Of a DNA stretch of 41,632 bases, positions 24,312-41,632 are shown piece after piece (the first letter of the stretch is position 1; every line of letters starts with the position of its first letter). The DNA is taken from IMG/VR virus record IMGVR_UViG_3300030410_000018, positions 1 to 41,632 of that record; one strand, 5' to 3'. The notes beneath the pieces were generated by a model, which made no database searches, was not told the origin of the DNA, and saw nothing but the letters and a program-made list of their open reading frames with translations. The position numbers were made by a program, and so were the translations under genes. The DNA is from a virus.

Positions 24312-27176
24312 TTACGAATAGTTGTAATAGGAGTGCATCGGCTTCATGCCGTAATGCTCATAGTCGATAGGGTCTTCAGCGCGGGTCCGAAGTGCTGCTT
24401 GGATTAGCGCAGGCAATGTGCTGGTGCCCGTCCCGCCTGTACCATGTCCAGATGATCCGTTCGGATTTGTCGGGCTATATTGGTTTCGATAGTCACCTGT
24501 TTGCGAATCCTGCTCATTCATATGGCGATCAAAGGCACTTGATGCCATGTTGGTCGTCGCGCCCGGTGCCCATGTTCCGTTGTCATAGCCGTTTTGCAAG
24601 GCGTTAATCAGTTGGCTGCCGGGTGTCTGCCCGGAAATGAGCTTGTCACCCATAACCGCAGCCGAACCCAATGGCCCGCCGAAAAATCCTAGACCAGCGT
24701 TGCCAATGCCCCCAACAATCTTGCCTAAGGTGCTATCTGCCCACCTAGGATTTGGCTGTCCGTTGTTTGTCGGATCAACGCCGCTTCTAGGCGGGATGTC
24801 GCCTCTGTTTTCGAAGCCGGGGCCTTCTGTTGCGATATGCGCCCCGCCGTCATTTAAGTGGCGCAATCGTGCAGCCGGAGACCCACCGGGATCATCATTG
24901 CCATTGCGCTCACGATCATTGCCATCATTAAAAGCGAATTTATCTAACGGCGCACCAAATGCATTTGGTGGCCTCATGACATTGGCCAGACCAGATGGAT
25001 CGACCATGCCGGGAAGGCCATAGCCGGGGTTGGGCATATCTCCGTATGAGTCCATCGACATAGGCATACGAGCAAGCGGATAATTGCTGCCCCCGCTTTG
25101 GTCTTGCGATGCACTTACCGATGGTGGAGGCGCGTTACCAAAGCCTGATGCCAATGTATAGCGATCATACTGGCTTGGCGTCATGCGGCCCGACAATGGA
25201 TCGTAGCCTTGCGAAGGATCACGCGGGTCATTGTATGCCGACTGCGTGTCACCAGAAGGGCTAGGCCCGACGCCGTTTAAGCCAGCAAGGTTGCGGTCGT
25301 GGTAGTCCGGCGATGCACCAAGCCCCACTCCACTCAATCCTGTAAGGTTCATATCGTGGTAATTGGGAACGGGGTTAGAACCAACGTTGTTTAAGCCCGC
25401 AAGATTTTGGTCGTGATAGTCGTTCCCGACACCAGACAGCCCCGCAAGGTTACGATCATGGTAGTCCTGCGACTGACCACCAGACCATGGCATCCCCTGA
25501 TATGCCGGAGCTTGTGGTGTTATCCCCTGCCCCATTGAGCCAGAGCTTGGCGAGCCGTATTGGACGCCAACTGTAGGGTCGTTCATAGCCATAGACAAAG
25601 GCCTCGAATAGTTTGGCGTATTGCCCTCGTAATTCGACGGGCTTAGCAGGTGTATGTAATCAGCCGTTTGAGCCGATGGCATGAATGCCGATGTTTCAAT
25701 TGATTGATTTGGTGTTTTTAAACCAGTGTAGGCGTTAGCAGAAGTCGGCATACCATCAGCCGATGCCAATGGCGACACCGGCGCGGAATAGCCCGCAAAG
25801 GCCGGGGACACGCCAAGAATGCTTGACAGAATGTTAGGACTGGCTTGAACGGATGCGCTTGGCAATGCAGGGCGCGTATACGTTGGCGACGGATCATTTG
25901 AAGCGGTTAGTGATTCGCCATTACCATTGCCAGCCCGCGCCATCATTTCCGGCATAAGATCATGTGTAAATGTTAAAGCATATGGAATTTCTTTTGGCGC
26001 ATCTGGCGCATAGCCATAAGTCTGCTGCGCCCCTTTATCGCCATATGTTACGCTATTTGGGTCATTTGCCATAGCAGTAACCCACTTACGGGTATCGGGA
26101 AGTGGGTTGCTTGCTAGTGTTAAAGGAACATTGGCATAGTTAAGTGTACTCTGTTGCGCATCTGGATTGACAGCAATATTAGCTAGAACGTCCTTTACTG
26201 CGTCTAGAGTGGCAGGCGATGCCTCTGGAACACGCGCAAGGCTTCCATAAGCTTGCAGGCCAGCAGGGCTGAATTGCGCCGATTTAGTCCCTTCGCCAGA
26301 CGCTAAAACTTTGTTTATATCGCCGGTAGAGGTTCCATAACCAGGCGTTGCAGCCCGATCAAGAAATGTTCCCAGCGTCGCACCAATGACGTTTGTCGCT
26401 TGGCCCGGATACTGAGACATGATGCTGCCGACTTCGGCTTGAAGCATCTTAGCTGAATTGTTGATCCTATTTTTATCAAGAGTTAAAAGACGAAATGAAT
26501 TAGGGTCAGTGCCGTATGCATCCGGCCCAGCTCCGCCGACCAATTCAGCACCGGCAAGCCCCGGAGTGGGGGGAAGCCCGCTGCCAATTTCTGCTTGAGG
26601 TCTTAACCCGCCTTCATTGTTTGGATCGCTAGAGCCAACAAGCGAGCCAAGCGCGGGCGCATTGTTGCCCAAGCTGCTGCCATAGTCGGGCACATTCTCT
26701 TGACCATTGCCCGCGCCGCCCGTCAGTCCAGCAACAGCCGATGCACTGGAATTGTCATATGATGGCGAACCCTCGGAACCGGCCTCGCTGCGTATTCCGG
26801 CGCCGGAACTGGAGATGGAGCTGCCGCCACCCGAAGGCTCGCTACGGCTTGCCTCCGACGAACGTTCGCCGCCCCATCCGGATGAACCCGAACCCGACGA
26901 TGAATAGCTGCTAGTGTCAGCACGGTCTTGCGCGGAGTCTTGGCGCATATCATCGGCGTGAGTGTAAGACCCGCCCTCACCTGTTCCGCCTTCGCTGGTA
27001 GGGCCGCCCTCTTCAAACTTCTTGACCGGGCCAGAGCGCCCTTGGAACATAAACGGGCGCGACGTGGCTTGAACCATGCCGCCCATTGCCATGTGATGCG
27101 CTTCCATAGCCGAAATAAGCGTGTCCAATTGTTGCGGGGATAGTTTGGTAATGCTCAAATCATTCTCCCCTTTCAT
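24312..27176 (-). CDS. Gly/Ser/Pro/Asn-rich protein between TerL and portal, 954 aa
   Basis: The start codon overlaps the TerL stop as TAATG. Nearly the whole length is low complexity. Residues 55-150 are Ser/Gly-rich, 160-560 are Asn/Pro/Ser/Ala-rich, and 565-640 carry four tandem copies of YHDxNLxGLxxVG. The C-terminus includes a hydrophobic Gly-rich piece (TLGKIVGGIGNAGLGFFGGP) that may insert in membranes. No enzyme motif is visible. The short N-terminal helix (LSPQQLDTLISAMEAHHMAMGG) resembles segments on other structural proteins here. It is probably a virion-associated protein, perhaps ejected. I do not recognise a family. Confidence 0.7.
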   Translation of the reverse strand: MKGENDLSITKLSPQQLDTLISAMEAHHMAMGGMVQATSRPFMFQGRSGPVKKFEEGGPTSEGGTGEGGSYTHADDMRQDSAQDRADTSSYSSSGSGSSGWGGERSSEASRSEPSGGGSSISSSGAGIRSEAGSEGSPSYDNSSASAVAGLTGGAGNGQENVPDYGSSLGNNAPALGSLVGSSDPNNEGGLRPQAEIGSGLPPTPGLAGAELVGGAGPDAYGTDPNSFRLLTLDKNRINNSAKMLQAEVGSIMSQYPGQATNVIGATLGTFLDRAATPGYGTSTGDINKVLASGEGTKSAQFSPAGLQAYGSLARVPEASPATLDAVKDVLANIAVNPDAQQSTLNYANVPLTLASNPLPDTRKWVTAMANDPNSVTYGDKGAQQTYGYAPDAPKEIPYALTFTHDLMPEMMARAGNGNGESLTASNDPSPTYTRPALPSASVQASPNILSSILGVSPAFAGYSAPVSPLASADGMPTSANAYTGLKTPNQSIETSAFMPSAQTADYIHLLSPSNYEGNTPNYSRPLSMAMNDPTVGVQYGSPSSGSMGQGITPQAPAYQGMPWSGGQSQDYHDRNLAGLSGVGNDYHDQNLAGLNNVGSNPVPNYHDMNLTGLSGVGLGASPDYHDRNLAGLNGVGPSPSGDTQSAYNDPRDPSQGYDPLSGRMTPSQYDRYTLASGFGNAPPPSVSASQDQSGGSNYPLARMPMSMDSYGDMPNPGYGLPGMVDPSGLANVMRPPNAFGAPLDKFAFNDGNDRERNGNDDPGGSPAARLRHLNDGGAHIATEGPGFENRGDIPPRSGVDPTNNGQPNPRWADSTLGKIVGGIGNAGLGFFGGPLGSAAVMGDKLISGQTPGSQLINALQNGYDNGTWAPGATTNMASSAFDRHMNEQDSQTGDYRNQYSPTNPNGSSGHGTGGTGTSTLPALIQAALRTRAEDPIDYEHYGMKPMHSYYNYS
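25268..25470 (-). repeat. Four tandem coding repeats (YHDxNLxGLxxVG)
   Basis: Four copies of a 14-20-codon unit with core YHDRNLAGLSGVG lie in the 954-aa gene, separated by 1-6 variable residues. The copies differ at a few codons, so they are diverged rather than recent duplicates. Confidence 0.8.
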
Positions 27177-28657
27177 TAGGCTGCATACGGGTTTTGGCGC
27201 TTAGGCCCGTCAACACGGTCTTCAACAAACTCACGTTCATGTTTTTTACTGGTGCGGATTTGGTCGCGATCTGAGAAATATCTCAGCGCTTGCGTTGCCG
27301 AATCCACATAGTCATCATGCTTCAAACTACCGTTGCCCGTGAACGCGCATATCTGGCTAATCAAGCCCATTGTGTTGGCGTCGAGGCTTTCATCAGCCCA
27401 CGAAATAGGTTGCCCGCTTAGATGCGGCTGGCTACTCTCAGGAACCCATACAACGCCATTGCTAAACAAATGCGATACGGCATGAAGCCGATCTAACTTG
27501 CCCGCCCTACCGGGGTTATACGGATATGTCAGCACACCCTCACGCGCTAGAACTTGACGCAGTGATATTCCGGAACCTTTGTCTTCAATGATCAACAGGT
27601 TAGGCTTCTTGCCGCGCTTTGGAACTATCCGGCCATTGTGGCCCATGATTTTGACTTCACCGTAGCGCGATTCCATCTCCCGATGCGCCGCCGTGATTAA
27701 TTCCGGCATTCCTAAACGTTTGGCCCAACAATCCAATAGGAGAATGTTTTTCTTACCGTCATCGTCGATAAACAGACCCCACGTCGTGCAAGCGGTGAAA
27801 TCGGTTTCATCAGTTTTTTTGTCTCTGGTTTCTTCCGTCATTGCAGTGTCGAGCGACACCACAATGCTTTCGAAATAGGGCAGAGCTTCATCATGCGGCC
27901 AGACCTCAAACCACGACCGTTTGATGATCGAGTTTTCCTCCGCCCCAATCAGTTCAGCGTGGATTTCTTGCCTACCTAATTGCGTCCCCTCATATTTGAG
28001 GATTTGCTCGCGAAACGTTGGCGCGAGATTAGCAAGGTTTGCATAGGTGCTGGCGCGGGTAAGAACAACATCCTTGCCTTCACGCGCAACAAGATCACGA
28101 ATGATCTGCTTTGGCTTTGGCGTCGTTGTTAAGATCAGCCGAGGATGATCTCCAAGCCGCTGCCCGAACATGAGCAGATCGAATGCTTCTTGACCATATT
28201 GCCATGCAGCCAGTTCTTCACACCATGCGCCATGAAATTCCGGCCCGCGAAACTTATCTGGCTTTTCCGCAGAAAGACCCTTGATTAACGTCCCGTTTAC
28301 AAGAGTTAGTTCAAGATCAGTGCTATTATATTTGGCTACTAACCCGCGAGGGATGACGTTTAACAAGCCGCTTTGGCCTTCAAAACATATGCCCTGAACG
28401 TCACTAAACGTAGGAGCTGCAACAAGCCAGCGCGTGTTTGGATTGGCCCACGCCCACTCTCGCAATGTCTCAGCAGCGAGGCGAGTCTTGCCAGCACCGC
28501 GGCCCGCTAACAGAAGCCAAATAGTCCACCAGTCATCAGGCGGAACTTTTTGATGTTCTAGCCGCGTCTTTGCCCATTTAACATCAGCACGAAGCGCGAT
28601 CAAATCTTGGTCGCTAAAACCCACAAGACTTTTTGCGAGCGCGTCCGCATCTAACAT
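27176..28657 (-). CDS. terL: Terminase large subunit
   Basis: This 493-aa DNA-packaging motor has the ATPase domain first. Walker A is AGRGAGKT (51-58), Walker B is around GAWCEEL (143-149), and a coupling motif TTTPKPK lies at 177-183. The RNase H-like nuclease domain carries acidic residues at SLDTAM (D270), IIEDKGSG (E358, D359) and HDDYVDS (D448/D449/D452). It docks on the portal and cuts concatemers. The gene is separated from the small subunit by about 630 bp containing three small genes and a terminator, and it is coupled to the 954-aa gene by TAATG. Confidence 0.95.
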   Translation of the reverse strand: MLDADALAKSLVGFSDQDLIALRADVKWAKTRLEHQKVPPDDWWTIWLLLAGRGAGKTRLAAETLREWAWANPNTRWLVAAPTFSDVQGICFEGQSGLLNVIPRGLVAKYNSTDLELTLVNGTLIKGLSAEKPDKFRGPEFHGAWCEELAAWQYGQEAFDLLMFGQRLGDHPRLILTTTPKPKQIIRDLVAREGKDVVLTRASTYANLANLAPTFREQILKYEGTQLGRQEIHAELIGAEENSIIKRSWFEVWPHDEALPYFESIVVSLDTAMTEETRDKKTDETDFTACTTWGLFIDDDGKKNILLLDCWAKRLGMPELITAAHREMESRYGEVKIMGHNGRIVPKRGKKPNLLIIEDKGSGISLRQVLAREGVLTYPYNPGRAGKLDRLHAVSHLFSNGVVWVPESSQPHLSGQPISWADESLDANTMGLISQICAFTGNGSLKHDDYVDSATQALRYFSDRDQIRTSKKHEREFVEDRVDGPKRQNPYAA

Positions 28658-39364: not shown

Positions 39365-39599
39365 ATTTGACGCGCTTGCCGTCCGGAATATGCAACGCTT
39401 CGCCGGTCTTTGGATTGCGCGCCGCATGGGCGGGAACGTCTTTAACTTTAAATGTTCCAAGATTACCGAGCGGCACGTCATGGCCGATGCCAAGGCAATT
39501 TTCGATTGTTGCGAAATACGATTGAAGAACCGATTTGACGATTGCCTTTGGCTGTTGGCATTCAAAGGCAACTAGATGGATCATTTCATCTTTGGTCAT
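39321..39599 (-). CDS. HU/IHF-like DNA-binding protein
   Basis: This 92-aa protein has the HU/IHF fold pattern: two N-terminal helices (MTKDEMIHLVAFECQQPKAI), then LGNLGTFKVKDVPAHAARNP in the beta-arm region, KTGEALHIPDGKRVKFTPS, and a C-terminal helix. GGAG lies 8 nt before the ATG. It bends DNA and may assist integration, packaging or regulation. It lies downstream of the embedded tRNA and before a strong terminator. Confidence 0.85.
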   Translation of the reverse strand: MTKDEMIHLVAFECQQPKAIVKSVLQSYFATIENCLGIGHDVPLGNLGTFKVKDVPAHAARNPKTGEALHIPDGKRVKFTPSAALKNAVSLP

Positions 39600-39966
39600 G
39601 GTCTTTGCTCCGTTGGAAAATGAGGTGCATGGCTTTCATCACGCAAGTGCCATACAACTTGCCGCTAGCCGGTGGTTGCTTCCGTCCATGATTGGCTTTC
39701 GCGGTAGGATTCGAACCTACGACCTGCCGAGTAGAAAGCGGCTGCTCTAATCCAACTGAGCTACGCGAATTGAAAATGAGGTGCATGGCTTTCATCGCAC
39801 AAGCGCCATGCGGCTTGCGTATCAGGCGGGGAGAAACGCCAGCGATTGGTGTTGCCGCATACAAATCAGCGTCCGACCAAATGGGGTCGAAAGCAGAATT
39901 GAAAACATCGGCATGTAATGGTTGGATGAGGTCGTCAGACCATCCGAATGTGAATGAGTGCGTCAT
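39586..39966 (-). CDS. 126-aa frame interrupted by an in-frame tRNA insertion
   Basis: The ATG overlaps the upstream stop as ATGA. The first 60 residues look like a normal small protein (MTHSFTFGWSDDLIQPLHAD, PTPIAG-like middle). Then MKAMHLIF appears twice, 52 codons apart, and the segment between the copies is the tRNA-Arg and its flank read as protein. Removing the 156-bp unit gives a plausible 74-aa ancestral protein. Whether the long frame is translated is doubtful, because the transcript should be processed at the tRNA. Confidence 0.5.
   Translation of the reverse strand: MTHSFTFGWSDDLIQPLHADVFNSAFDPIWSDADLYAATPIAGVSPRLIRKPHGACAMKAMHLIFNSRSSVGLEQPLSTRQVVGSNPTAKANHGRKQPPASGKLYGTCVMKAMHLIFQRSKDHDQR
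39616..39662. repeat. Copy 1 of the 47-bp repeat flanking the tRNA
   Basis: 41 of 47 bases match 39772-39818, with the first 25 identical. The offset is 156 bp. It starts at the 3' side of the tRNA on the minus strand. Confidence 0.8.
39693..39770 (-). tRNA. tRNA-Arg (anticodon UCU)
   Basis: A 78-nt cloverleaf reads on the minus strand. The acceptor is ATTCGCG/CGCGAAA with one A-A mismatch at the end. The D-arm has GCTC/GAGC, and the T-arm has GTAGG/CCTAC around TTCGAAT. CCA is encoded. The anticodon loop TTTCTAC gives UCU, reading AGA (and perhaps AGG). The anticodon stem has a C-T mismatch at its loop end. The two imperfect pairs suggest phage drift. It is flanked by a 47-bp direct repeat and lies in an open frame. 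Confidence 0.85.
39772..39818. repeat. Copy 2 of the 47-bp repeat flanking the tRNA
   Basis: Matches 39616-39662 at 41 of 47 positions. It begins 2 bp outside the 5' end of the tRNA. Confidence 0.8.
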
Positions 39967-40121: not shown

Positions 40122-40279
40122 GAGTCACCCGCAAGAACAGCCGTAATGGCAAAGAGAGACACGGCGATGCTGGCGAGCAAATAAAAGACGCCCGTCTCAA
40201 AATCGTGTCCAATCAAAACAATAAAAATAGAAACTGTAAAAAGGCCAAAACTTGCGCCTCTTAGATATGGGGATATCAT
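40118..40279 (-). CDS. 53-aa two-TM membrane protein
   Basis: Two hydrophobic segments (about 8-23 and 31-50, GASFGLFTVSIFIVLIG and VFYLLASIAVSLFAITAVLA) flank the short acidic HDFETG. It is coupled to the XRE gene and to the next membrane protein by ATGA overlaps. Function unknown; the pair probably acts in the inner membrane. Confidence 0.6.
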   Translation of the reverse strand: MISPYLRGASFGLFTVSIFIVLIGHDFETGVFYLLASIAVSLFAITAVLAGDS

Positions 40280-40488
40280 GCGAGCACCTGTGGGGTGGCT
40301 GGCATAAAGTCGTTAGGAGTGACCGCGCCATTTGTCGCGTGAACTAGCCTTGCAATAGTTTTCACGGATGGGCGGGCAACGCTGCGTTCAATTTTTGAAA
40401 GAAACGACTTTTTAACTCCAGCCGACAAGGCCAGGGTATCTAAAGAAATCCCGCTTTTTATTCTGTAAGTGCGTAGAGCATGTTCCAT
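40276..40488 (-). CDS. XRE-family regulator, short (Cro/CI-like)
   Basis: This 70-aa protein is essentially one helix-turn-helix domain: LRTYRIKSGISLDTLALSAG, VKKSFLSKIERS, RPSVKTIARLVHAT. It has no effector domain. Its start lies 8 bp from operator O1. It heads an operon of two membrane proteins, the tRNA-containing frame and HU, all linked by ATGA. It could be the Cro-like partner of the divergent XRE gene, though which is repressor is not evident. Confidence 0.8.
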   Translation of the reverse strand: MEHALRTYRIKSGISLDTLALSAGVKKSFLSKIERSVARPSVKTIARLVHATNGAVTPNDFMPATPQVLA

Positions 40489-40495
40489 TTGCGTA

Positions 40496-40516
40496 AAGTG
40501 TCATTAAAAGACACTT
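40496..40516. promoter_or_regulatory. Operator O1 (7-7-7 palindrome)
   Basis: AAGTGTC and GACACTT are perfect inverted arms around a 7-bp AT-rich centre, immediately upstream of the short XRE gene. The same sequence with minor changes occurs at O2 and O3. Confidence 0.75.
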
Positions 40517-40580
40517 AATGCAAGCTTTAAGTTTAATCTGCGGCTAACGATTTTTAGATATGGGATTGGTAATATGGTTA

Positions 40581-40916
40581 ATGATCCAAATTACTAAAAT
40601 TCATCAGCATAGATCAGCGCCGCGAACACATTTCTTTATGGAGTGGCTGGAATGGCGCGGGATTAAAAAATCGGAATTTGCTCGAATGGTCGGCGTCGAT
40701 AAGTCACTTGTGACAAAATGGGCAAGTGGAAACATGCCCACTGGCAAAAACATTATGACTATTACGGAACAACTTAACATTGAACCAAACGATCTATTTA
40801 GACATCCAAATGATGATTGGCTTACCAAGTTTTTTGAAGGTCGGAAACAAGATGAAATTGATCGCATAAAAATCATGCTTCAGGCAGCCTTTCCAAAAAC
40901 AGGGACAGGCGGTTAA
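40581..40916 (+). CDS. XRE-family regulator with C-terminal extension
   Basis: An ATG at 40581 is chosen; 40560 is also in frame, and the helix-turn-helix proper starts only near 40638. The product is 111 aa. The HTH has MEWLEWRGIKKSEFARMVGV, DKSLVTKWASGNMPTGKNIM and EQLNIEPNDLF, followed by a charged helix ending in MLQAAF. It is transcribed divergently from the short XRE gene, with operator O1 between, and is followed by a terminator. It may be the lysogeny repressor or its antagonist. Confidence 0.75.
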   Translation: MIQITKIHQHRSAPRTHFFMEWLEWRGIKKSEFARMVGVDKSLVTKWASGNMPTGKNIMTITEQLNIEPNDLFRHPNDDWLTKFFEGRKQDEIDRIKIMLQAAFPKTGTGG

Positions 40917-41005: not shown

Positions 41006-41026
41006 AAGTGTCATTTATTGACATTT
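41006..41026. promoter_or_regulatory. Operator O2 overlapping a TTGACA element
   Basis: AAGTGTC and GACATTT flank a 7-bp centre, one change from the O1 arm. TTGACA (41018-41023) is inside the site. O2 is centred 33 bp from O3. Confidence 0.7.
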
Positions 41027-41053
41027 TGATATTGACCAAAGTTTCTTTATATG
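41026..41053 (+). promoter_or_regulatory. Promoter candidate for the DUF6948-type gene
   Basis: TTGATA (41026-41031) and TATATG (41048-41053) are 16 bp apart. The -35 touches O2 and the -10 lies inside O3, so repressor binding would block it. Confidence 0.5.
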
Positions 41054-41059
41054 ACACAT
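41039..41059. promoter_or_regulatory. Operator O3 covering the -10 region
   Basis: AAGTTTC and GACACAT are imperfect arms around TTTATAT, with the same 7-7-7 layout as O1 and O2. Confidence 0.6.
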
Positions 41060-41103: not shown

Positions 41104-41397
41104 ATGACCAGTAAAGCAAGTCGTCCGGTTCTTGTAACCACAGAATTTCGAGGCGTTTTCTTTGGTTATTCCGATGATACCAGTGGCGATACAATCACGC
41201 TGAAAAACGCCCGGAATTGCATCTACTGGCCATCTACTCAGGGAGGATTTGGGGGGCTTGCATCGGAAGGCCCGGCAAATGGTTCGCGCGTCGGCGCAGT
41301 AGTTGAATCCCTCGAACTTCGCAAAATTACTTCAGTTTCAGAAGTGACCGCAGATGCAGCGGCGGCATGGGAAAAAGCCAATGTCTATCGGGGTTGA
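41104..41397 (+). CDS. DUF6948-type small beta protein
   Basis: The ATG at 41104 has AAGGAG 7 nt upstream; the longer in-frame start at 41008 would begin inside O2. The 97-aa protein has RPVLVTTEFRGVFFGYSDDT, GDTITLKNARNCIYW, GGFGGLASEGP and a helical end with VTADAAAAWEKA. By family knowledge this is the DUF6948 pattern of small phage proteins. Function is not known. Its expression is under O2/O3, so it is part of the immunity circuit output. Its 3' end overlaps the Gly-X frame by 17 nt. Confidence 0.7.
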   Translation: MTSKASRPVLVTTEFRGVFFGYSDDTSGDTITLKNARNCIYWPSTQGGFGGLASEGPANGSRVGAVVESLELRKITSVSEVTADAAAAWEKANVYRG

Positions 41398-41632
41398 CGG
41401 CTCCGGCGACGGCTCCGGCTACGGCTACGGCTCCGGCTCCGGCTACGGCTCCGGCAACGGCTCCGGCTACGGCTACGGCTCCGGCTCCGGCTCCGGCTAC
41501 GGCTACGGCTCCGGCTACGGCTACGGCTCCGGCTCCGGCGACGGATCCGGCGACGGCTCCGGCGACGGCTACGGCTCCGGCTACGGCAACGGCTCCGGCT
41601 CCGGCTCCGGCTACGGCTCTGGCTACGGCTCC
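41381..41632 (+). CDS. (Gly-X)n repeat protein, partial
   Basis: The ATG at 41381 lies in the 3' end of the previous gene, in another frame, and opens MSIGVD followed by 39 Gly-X pairs to the window edge. X is Ser 20, Tyr 13, Asp 4 and Asn 2 by my count. Nearly every Gly is GGC. It has no good SD and probably relies on coupling with the DUF6948-type gene. Similar Gly/Ser/Tyr/Asp-rich frames follow small genes in other phages, from memory. The product would be disordered and possibly phase-separating or adhesive; nothing is established. Confidence 0.5.
   Translation, partial: MSIGVDGSGDGSGYGYGSGSGYGSGNGSGYGYGSGSGSGYGYGSGYGYGSGSGDGSGDGSGDGYGSGYGNGSGSGSGYGSGYGS
41397..41632 (+). repeat. Hexanucleotide repeat GGC-NNC
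   Basis: About 39 units of GGCTCC, GGCTAC, GGCGAC or GGCAAC run to the end of the window. One GGA and one TCT are the only deviations I found. The repeat may continue and may be where assembly stopped. Confidence 0.9.

Follow-up and report, generated by a model that had tools for sequence, protein, structure and literature searches.

A conserved phage module pairs DUF6948, a probable Sm-like protein, with a hypervariable Gly-X repeat gene

Comparison of viral contigs shows that a DUF6948 gene and a gene for a long repeat of glycine alternating with a second residue (Gly-X) form a conserved two-gene phage module, in which the repeat tract is rewritten much faster than its flanks while its composition, Gly plus Ser, Tyr, Asp and Asn, is kept. 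The module came to light at the end of the viral stretch described below.

Results

A Gly-X gene overlaps a DUF6948 gene at the end of a viral contig

The window, that is, the whole stretch of DNA analysed, comprises 41,632 bases and is the complete IMG/VR virus record IMGVR_UViG_3300030410_000018; because the record is complete at this length, its Gly-X array is cut by the contig end, and the contig also ends inside the array in 5 of 17 close relatives with arrays. The features at this end are:

40276..40488, minus strand: divergent HTH (repressor-type) regulator (Pfam HTH_3, E=1.3e-9)
40496..40516, unstranded: operator-like 21-nt pseudo-palindrome AAGTGTCATTAAAAGACACTT, located between the two divergent HTH genes
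40560..40916, plus strand: HTH (Cro/CI-type) regulator upstream of the module (Pfam HTH_3, E=1.6e-7; PHROG, transcriptional regulators)
41006..41026, unstranded: operator-like 21-nt pseudo-palindrome AAGTGTCATTTATTGACATTT upstream of DUF6948, 81% identical to the copy at 40496-40516
41039..41059, unstranded: second operator-like copy AAGTTTCTTTATATGACACAT, 76% identical
41104..41397, plus strand: DUF6948 gene for a protein of 97 aa that is predicted to form a small Sm-like barrel (Pfam PF22253, AlphaFold)
41381..41632, plus strand: Gly-X gene, ATG at 41381, leader MSIGVD followed by the array; 3' end outside the record
41399..41632, plus strand: array of 39 Gly-X hexanucleotides, truncated at the contig end

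The first-pass annotation, made from the sequence alone, had described a frame of 39 Gly-X pairs (X = Ser, Tyr, Asp or Asn) that starts 17 nt inside a DUF6948-type gene. We counted exactly 39 hexamers at 41399-41632, the 17-nt overlap runs from the ATG at 41381 to the DUF6948 stop codon (TGA, 41395-41397), and the upstream gene matches Pfam PF22253 with E=1.7e-21 (76.5 bits, gathering cut-off 27). The Gly-X open reading frame begins MSIGVDGSGDGSGYGYG and stays open up to 41632. Its glycine codons are, as had been noted, almost invariantly GGC (38 of 39, with one GGA), and its X codons are TCC (19), TCT (1), TAC (13), GAC (4) and AAC (2), which specify 20 Ser, 13 Tyr, 4 Asp and 2 Asn residues. 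A scan of the record in 1.26-kb segments revealed no comparable Gly-X run elsewhere. The proposal that the pair is operator-controlled also gained support: imperfect copies of the pseudo-palindrome that lies between the HTH genes recur twice just upstream of DUF6948, so the pair is plausibly under the phage switch. A scan for consensus promoters gave no match at this locus.

A lone tRNA-Arg (TCT) gene (39693-39770, minus strand) lies between an HU-like gene and the switch region, in surroundings that are partly duplicated (MKAMHLIF occurs twice within the frame at 39586-39966), and this stretch is possibly an attachment site.

DUF6948 and Gly-X genes are linked in both directions

Array-selected loci were obtained with two pattern scans of viral contigs, both blind to DUF6948. 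Among the matches listed, an iterated profile identified a DUF6948-type gene in 70 of the 82 loci with at least 450 nt upstream, and the 91 profile matches overall, again among the matches listed, all lie on the strand of the array at a median distance of 59 nt. Independently, the Pfam DUF6948 model matched 69 of 74 aligned linked genes (E<=0.01). For the reverse direction, two distant DUF6948 queries yielded 73 and 65 loci with enough downstream sequence, and an array follows just downstream of DUF6948 in 68 and 62 of them, respectively (median 40 and 7 nt after the gene), compared to none in 190 control segments from the same loci. By these counts the pairing is near-obligate. The first-pass annotation had called for a search for other phages with this arrangement and had stated beforehand that a frame broken in relatives would speak against the gene; the outcome favours the Gly-X frame, which is kept in nearly all DUF6948 phages.

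Hundreds of phage contigs contain the module. The pair was found in each of the 15 cultured or named phage records examined, namely Rhodobacter phage RcapNL, two Rheinheimera Barba phages, Iodobacter phage PhiPLPE, Chlorobiaceae phage CV-1-33, Dickeya phage Setonix, Vibrio phage IKEMa6-1, one environmental genome and the Pectobacterium phages Taid, Ymer, Abuela, Amona, Koroua, Pappous and Sabo; these records are not independent, as eight belong to one Pectobacterium-type group and two are the Barba phages. The hosts of the cultured module phages include Pectobacterium, Rheinheimera, Rhodobacter, Iodobacter, a Chlorobiaceae strain and Vibrio. DUF6948 occurs in 2 of 385 alphaproteobacterial genomes, in both of which a Gly-X tract follows it, and in none of 369 bacterial genomes of another class. 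Scanning cellular genomes for long Gly-X arrays, we found that 4 of 125 pass a lax S/Y/D/N criterion (among the matches listed), and these four are D/H/N or S/F/Y mixtures, none of the phage type. On this distribution, we conclude that the module is viral.

The arrangement varies at a few loci. DUF6948 and Gly-X are encoded as a single open reading frame at L047, the only fusion seen. At L152 several Gly-X genes with a shared MKEKHNM leader are placed before DUF6948, and L066 (1693-2971) carries five tandem Gly-X genes that have the same leader, MGLKAFLKF, and the same tail, GEPNLTSAGATVVEE, around different arrays.

Among the neighbours of the module are DnaB-type helicases, DNA methyltransferases, the annealing proteins ERF and Sak4, and YqaJ and RecE-like exonucleases, and among cultured phages RecE lies near the module in PhiPLPE, as do Erf and SSB in Taid. 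Such neighbours indicate that the module belongs to early replication/recombination regions, and the nearness of recombination genes may reflect nothing beyond a shared early operon.

Arrays are rewritten between close phages at constant composition

Heterozygosity along the hexamer (0, 0, 0.04, 0.44, 0.36, 0.03) peaks at the first two bases of the X codon, the positions to which the first-pass annotation had assigned the variation. When lengths and X patterns were compared, as it had also suggested, arrays proved hypervariable between close phages. In Taid, Ymer and Amona the DUF6948 genes are identical and the flanks nearly so, but the arrays, of 35, 28 and 25 units, are no more similar to one another than shuffled arrays would be. 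Similarly, L002 and L003 share 99.7% identity across 300 nt upstream, yet their arrays have 32 and 47 units in differing order. Eight separate contigs with 100% identical DUF6948 genes also share their array (seven contain the full 37 units and the eighth its start), which argues that array differences are not assembly noise. Asp is present in 87 of 87 arrays tested and Tyr in 86 of 87, the order of adjacent X residues is close to random on average, and roughly one array in four contains more block duplications than expected. We infer that recombination shuffles the units while selection holds the mixture.

A pattern in which each unit varies at the first two bases of a single codon, with the wobble base fixed, recalls diversity-generating retroelements (DGRs). 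The codon spectrum is wrong for a DGR, however, as AGY, ACY, GCY and CCY outcomes are nearly absent from the arrays, and no reverse transcriptase was found: PF00078 was missing from the record, which is a fragment, and from five module-bearing phage genomes, whereas control genomes were positive. We therefore rejected a DGR as the source of the variation.

Diversifying selection might instead drive the turnover, if Gly-X were a hypervariable effector or decoy directed against a host or superinfecting-phage factor and DUF6948 only chaperoned or delivered it. The contrast between conserved surroundings and divergent arrays in Taid, Ymer and Amona and in L002 and L003 would fit such an arms race, as would the five different arrays of L066 within shared leaders and tails. 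Many anti-host genes are located in the phage early operon, which is where the module lies. However, a fixed composition with near-random X order suits a function based on composition better than specific recognition, and separate contigs with 100% identical DUF6948 share one array; we consider an arms race unlikely.

The strict alternation of Gly with a second residue in a long repeat is reminiscent of silk, in that the crystalline regions of Bombyx mori fibroin consist of GAGAGS/GAGAGA repeats (PMC12512099) and the phage X residues are likewise small polar residues plus Tyr. The Gly-X chains could accordingly form beta-sheet fibres or a gel and serve as a structural scaffold, in a replication compartment or associated with the virion, rather than regulating nucleic acids. 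Yet Ala, the main X residue of fibroin, is almost absent from the phage arrays, where X is Ser, Tyr, Asp or Asn and Asp is always present; the phage-encoded repeats are moreover hypervariable, and the module sits among early genes. A silk-like role thus appears quite improbable.

The Gly-X frame is protein-coding

Over 115 arrays of at least 15 units, we distinguished four codon types, GGC-NNC (75 arrays), GGC-NNT (26), GGG-NNC (10) and GGT-NNC (4), and in all of them Gly alternates with a residue that is mainly Ser, Tyr, Asp or Asn; the wobble bases match between unit types within the array in 112 of the 115. Since wobble bases switch while amino acids stay, a non-coding repeat is disfavoured, and with it the specially structured non-coding DNA that the first-pass annotation had listed as one option. 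The X codons are almost exclusively TCY, TAY, GAY and AAY, with rare CAY, TTY or TGY, that is, TAY or its single-step neighbours, and AGY serine codons are nearly absent.

The gene has start codons of its own (ATG at 82 loci, GTG at 7), most of them between -20 and +8 nt from the DUF6948 stop. Most close relatives found via DUF6948 use the same overlapping ATG, and both start position and frame are conserved in L002-L004, L007-L010 and L013. A Shine-Dalgarno (SD)-like motif precedes 49% of Gly-X starts versus 7% of control windows, and a stop codon usually occurs soon after the array. These properties, along with the amino acids kept across codon types, bear out the earlier suggestion of a low-complexity structural or regulatory protein, and we conclude from codon usage and conservation that the Gly-X gene is protein-coding. 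Its frame relative to DUF6948 is +2 in 58 loci and +1 in 30, and the occurrence of both argues for translational coupling and not programmed frameshifting.

Several other readings of the tract were rejected or disfavoured. A programmed frameshift product of DUF6948 is incompatible with the inconstant frame relation and the separate start codons. In the Ala-X and Arg-X frames, residue identity changes when wobble bases change, whereas the Gly-X frame is constant. The slippage-prone length switch envisaged at first, a phase-variable simple-repeat device, is not supported as a switch: the units are whole hexamers, so that changes in unit number leave the frame intact, and the eight contigs with identical DUF6948 genes showed no array difference. 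A chance or non-coding repeat is contradicted by codon switching, start-site conservation and linkage to DUF6948. The related idea of selfish or neutral repeat DNA, untranslated or dispensable and located after DUF6948 by happenstance, draws on the ability of slippage to expand repeats, on contigs that often break in the array and on the excess block duplications, but it is very improbable, as codons switch synonymously at constant amino acids, the overlapping starts are conserved and enriched in SD motifs, and linkage exceeds 90% in both of the distant DUF6948 groups.

Apart from Ser, the X residues (Tyr, Asp, Asn and His) correspond exactly to the set decoded by GUN-anticodon, queuosine-type tRNAs, a match that may be coincidence because the codons of these four amino acids are the NAY neighbours of TAY. 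That the codon run would let ribosomes sense charged tRNAs in the manner of an attenuator is scarcely credible: the GUN set, the predominance of NAY among X codons other than TCY and the uniform wobble within an array fit such a device, but Ser, outside that set, is a main X residue in many arrays, Gly does not vary, the neighbouring genes showed no constant downstream target of regulation, and in several phages the tract is part of longer proteins with conserved domains.

Pfam and PHROG provided no useful model for the Gly-X protein or its attached domains. In more distant relatives (L018-L020) the array forms the C-terminal tail of a small domain of ~60 residues. L018-L020, L044, L090, L131 and L215 have a domain with a conserved Ala-Cys motif ahead of the array, and in one group of phages, L034 (5033-5497), L070, L071, L075, L096, L114 and L119, a conserved domain of ~155 aa follows it; the latter has invariant AHG and TGSC..GR..F motifs and no Pfam or PHROG match. 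In the environmental phage genome MW202613.1 the Gly-X gene (26884-27198) is annotated as 'lamprin', apparently a low-complexity misannotation.

DUF6948 probably adopts an Sm-like fold

An AlphaFold model of DUF6948 built from 74 sequences is a confident barrel (pLDDT 94.6). The top Foldseek rows in the PDB are Sm/LSm or LSm-domain chains with probabilities of 0.99-1.00, although E values start only at ~5e-3. With VIA the best match was 3by7 (14% identity; Z 6.9, below 8, a range about which the tool warns), followed by LSm and archaeal Sm proteins. The 3by7 entry, from an uncultured source, is titled 'structurally similar to Sm/LSm-like RNA-binding proteins', and the protein was described as putatively cyanophage-derived. 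The same procedure gave a confident AlphaFold model without a PDB match for the ~155-aa domain that follows some arrays, which argues that the pipeline does not return Sm matches by default. At the level of profiles, DUF6948 aligned with the archaeal LSm family on Sm1 with a score of 20.4 (single-comparison E 0.006), compared to at most 15.4 in 120 column-permuted controls and to 15.2 for the cold-shock domain (CSD), 9.6 for CsrA and 16.4 for Hfq.

We conclude that DUF6948 probably has an Sm-like fold. We did not file it as an LSm family member because the Z score lies below 8, the N-terminal helix typical of classical Sm proteins is missing from the model, the part of the family consensus that corresponds to the Sm2 signature (Arg-Gly in beta4-beta5) contains no conserved RG, and none of the DUF6948 members checked has a Pfam LSM match. 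A DUF6948 profile search of PDB sequences retrieved no relative. The average net charge of the family is +1.9.

Discussion

The reading we favour, tentatively and at somewhat short of even confidence, is by analogy with Hfq: an Sm-like, nucleic-acid-binding DUF6948 would work with a translationally coupled, acidic and Tyr-rich Gly-X partner that acts like the Hfq tail. DUF6948 would be a small barrel, probably ring-forming, and the Gly-X polypeptide its low-complexity 'tail' supplied in trans, with Tyr as sticker, Gly, Ser and Asn as spacers and Asp as the source of acidic charge. Linkage and the one fusion suggest that the two proteins may touch. The phage switch would direct the joint production of both at an early stage of infection, and their targets may be phage RNA or ssDNA close to the replication/recombination machinery. 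The pair might concentrate nucleic acid in an assembly, or else Gly-X might compete with nucleic acid and tune its release, as does the acidic C-terminal tail of Hfq, a nucleic-acid mimic that competes with nucleic acid (PMC5606850); the Hfq C-terminal region also affects ssDNA and phage lambda recombination (PMC10392684). If composition rather than order matters, recombination between repeat units could freely reorder the tract, with selection preserving the mixture.

A more specific version, that an Sm-like RNA/ssDNA-binding ring and a separately encoded, rapidly reshuffled Gly-[Ser/Tyr/Asp/Asn] protein build or regulate a nucleoprotein condensate during infection, is possible but doubtful. 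If true, it would provide a phage counterpart of LSm/hnRNP-type low-complexity domains, one whose composition is under selection but whose order is not.

The module resembles Hfq in combining an Sm-type small barrel with a low-complexity tail, but the phage 'tail' is a separate overlapping gene, strictly Gly-X and hypervariable between close phages, and DUF6948 matches Hfq or LSM neither in Pfam nor at the sequence level. Pfam assigns no function to PF22253, of which DUF6948 is a member, and we found no model for its Gly-X partner there. A search of the open-access literature found no paper on DUF6948, phage Gly-X repeats or their pairing, and the module is apparently undescribed so far; it may have been overlooked because its second gene resembles low-complexity sequence. 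What is new is the module and its mode of variation, whereas the mechanism, if Hfq-like, would vary a known theme.

Owing to this linkage, DUF6948 now has a partner as well as a probable fold. Phages that are near-identical around the array but have unrelated arrays, moreover, constitute a natural experiment on whether composition alone, and not order, carries the function of a disordered protein.
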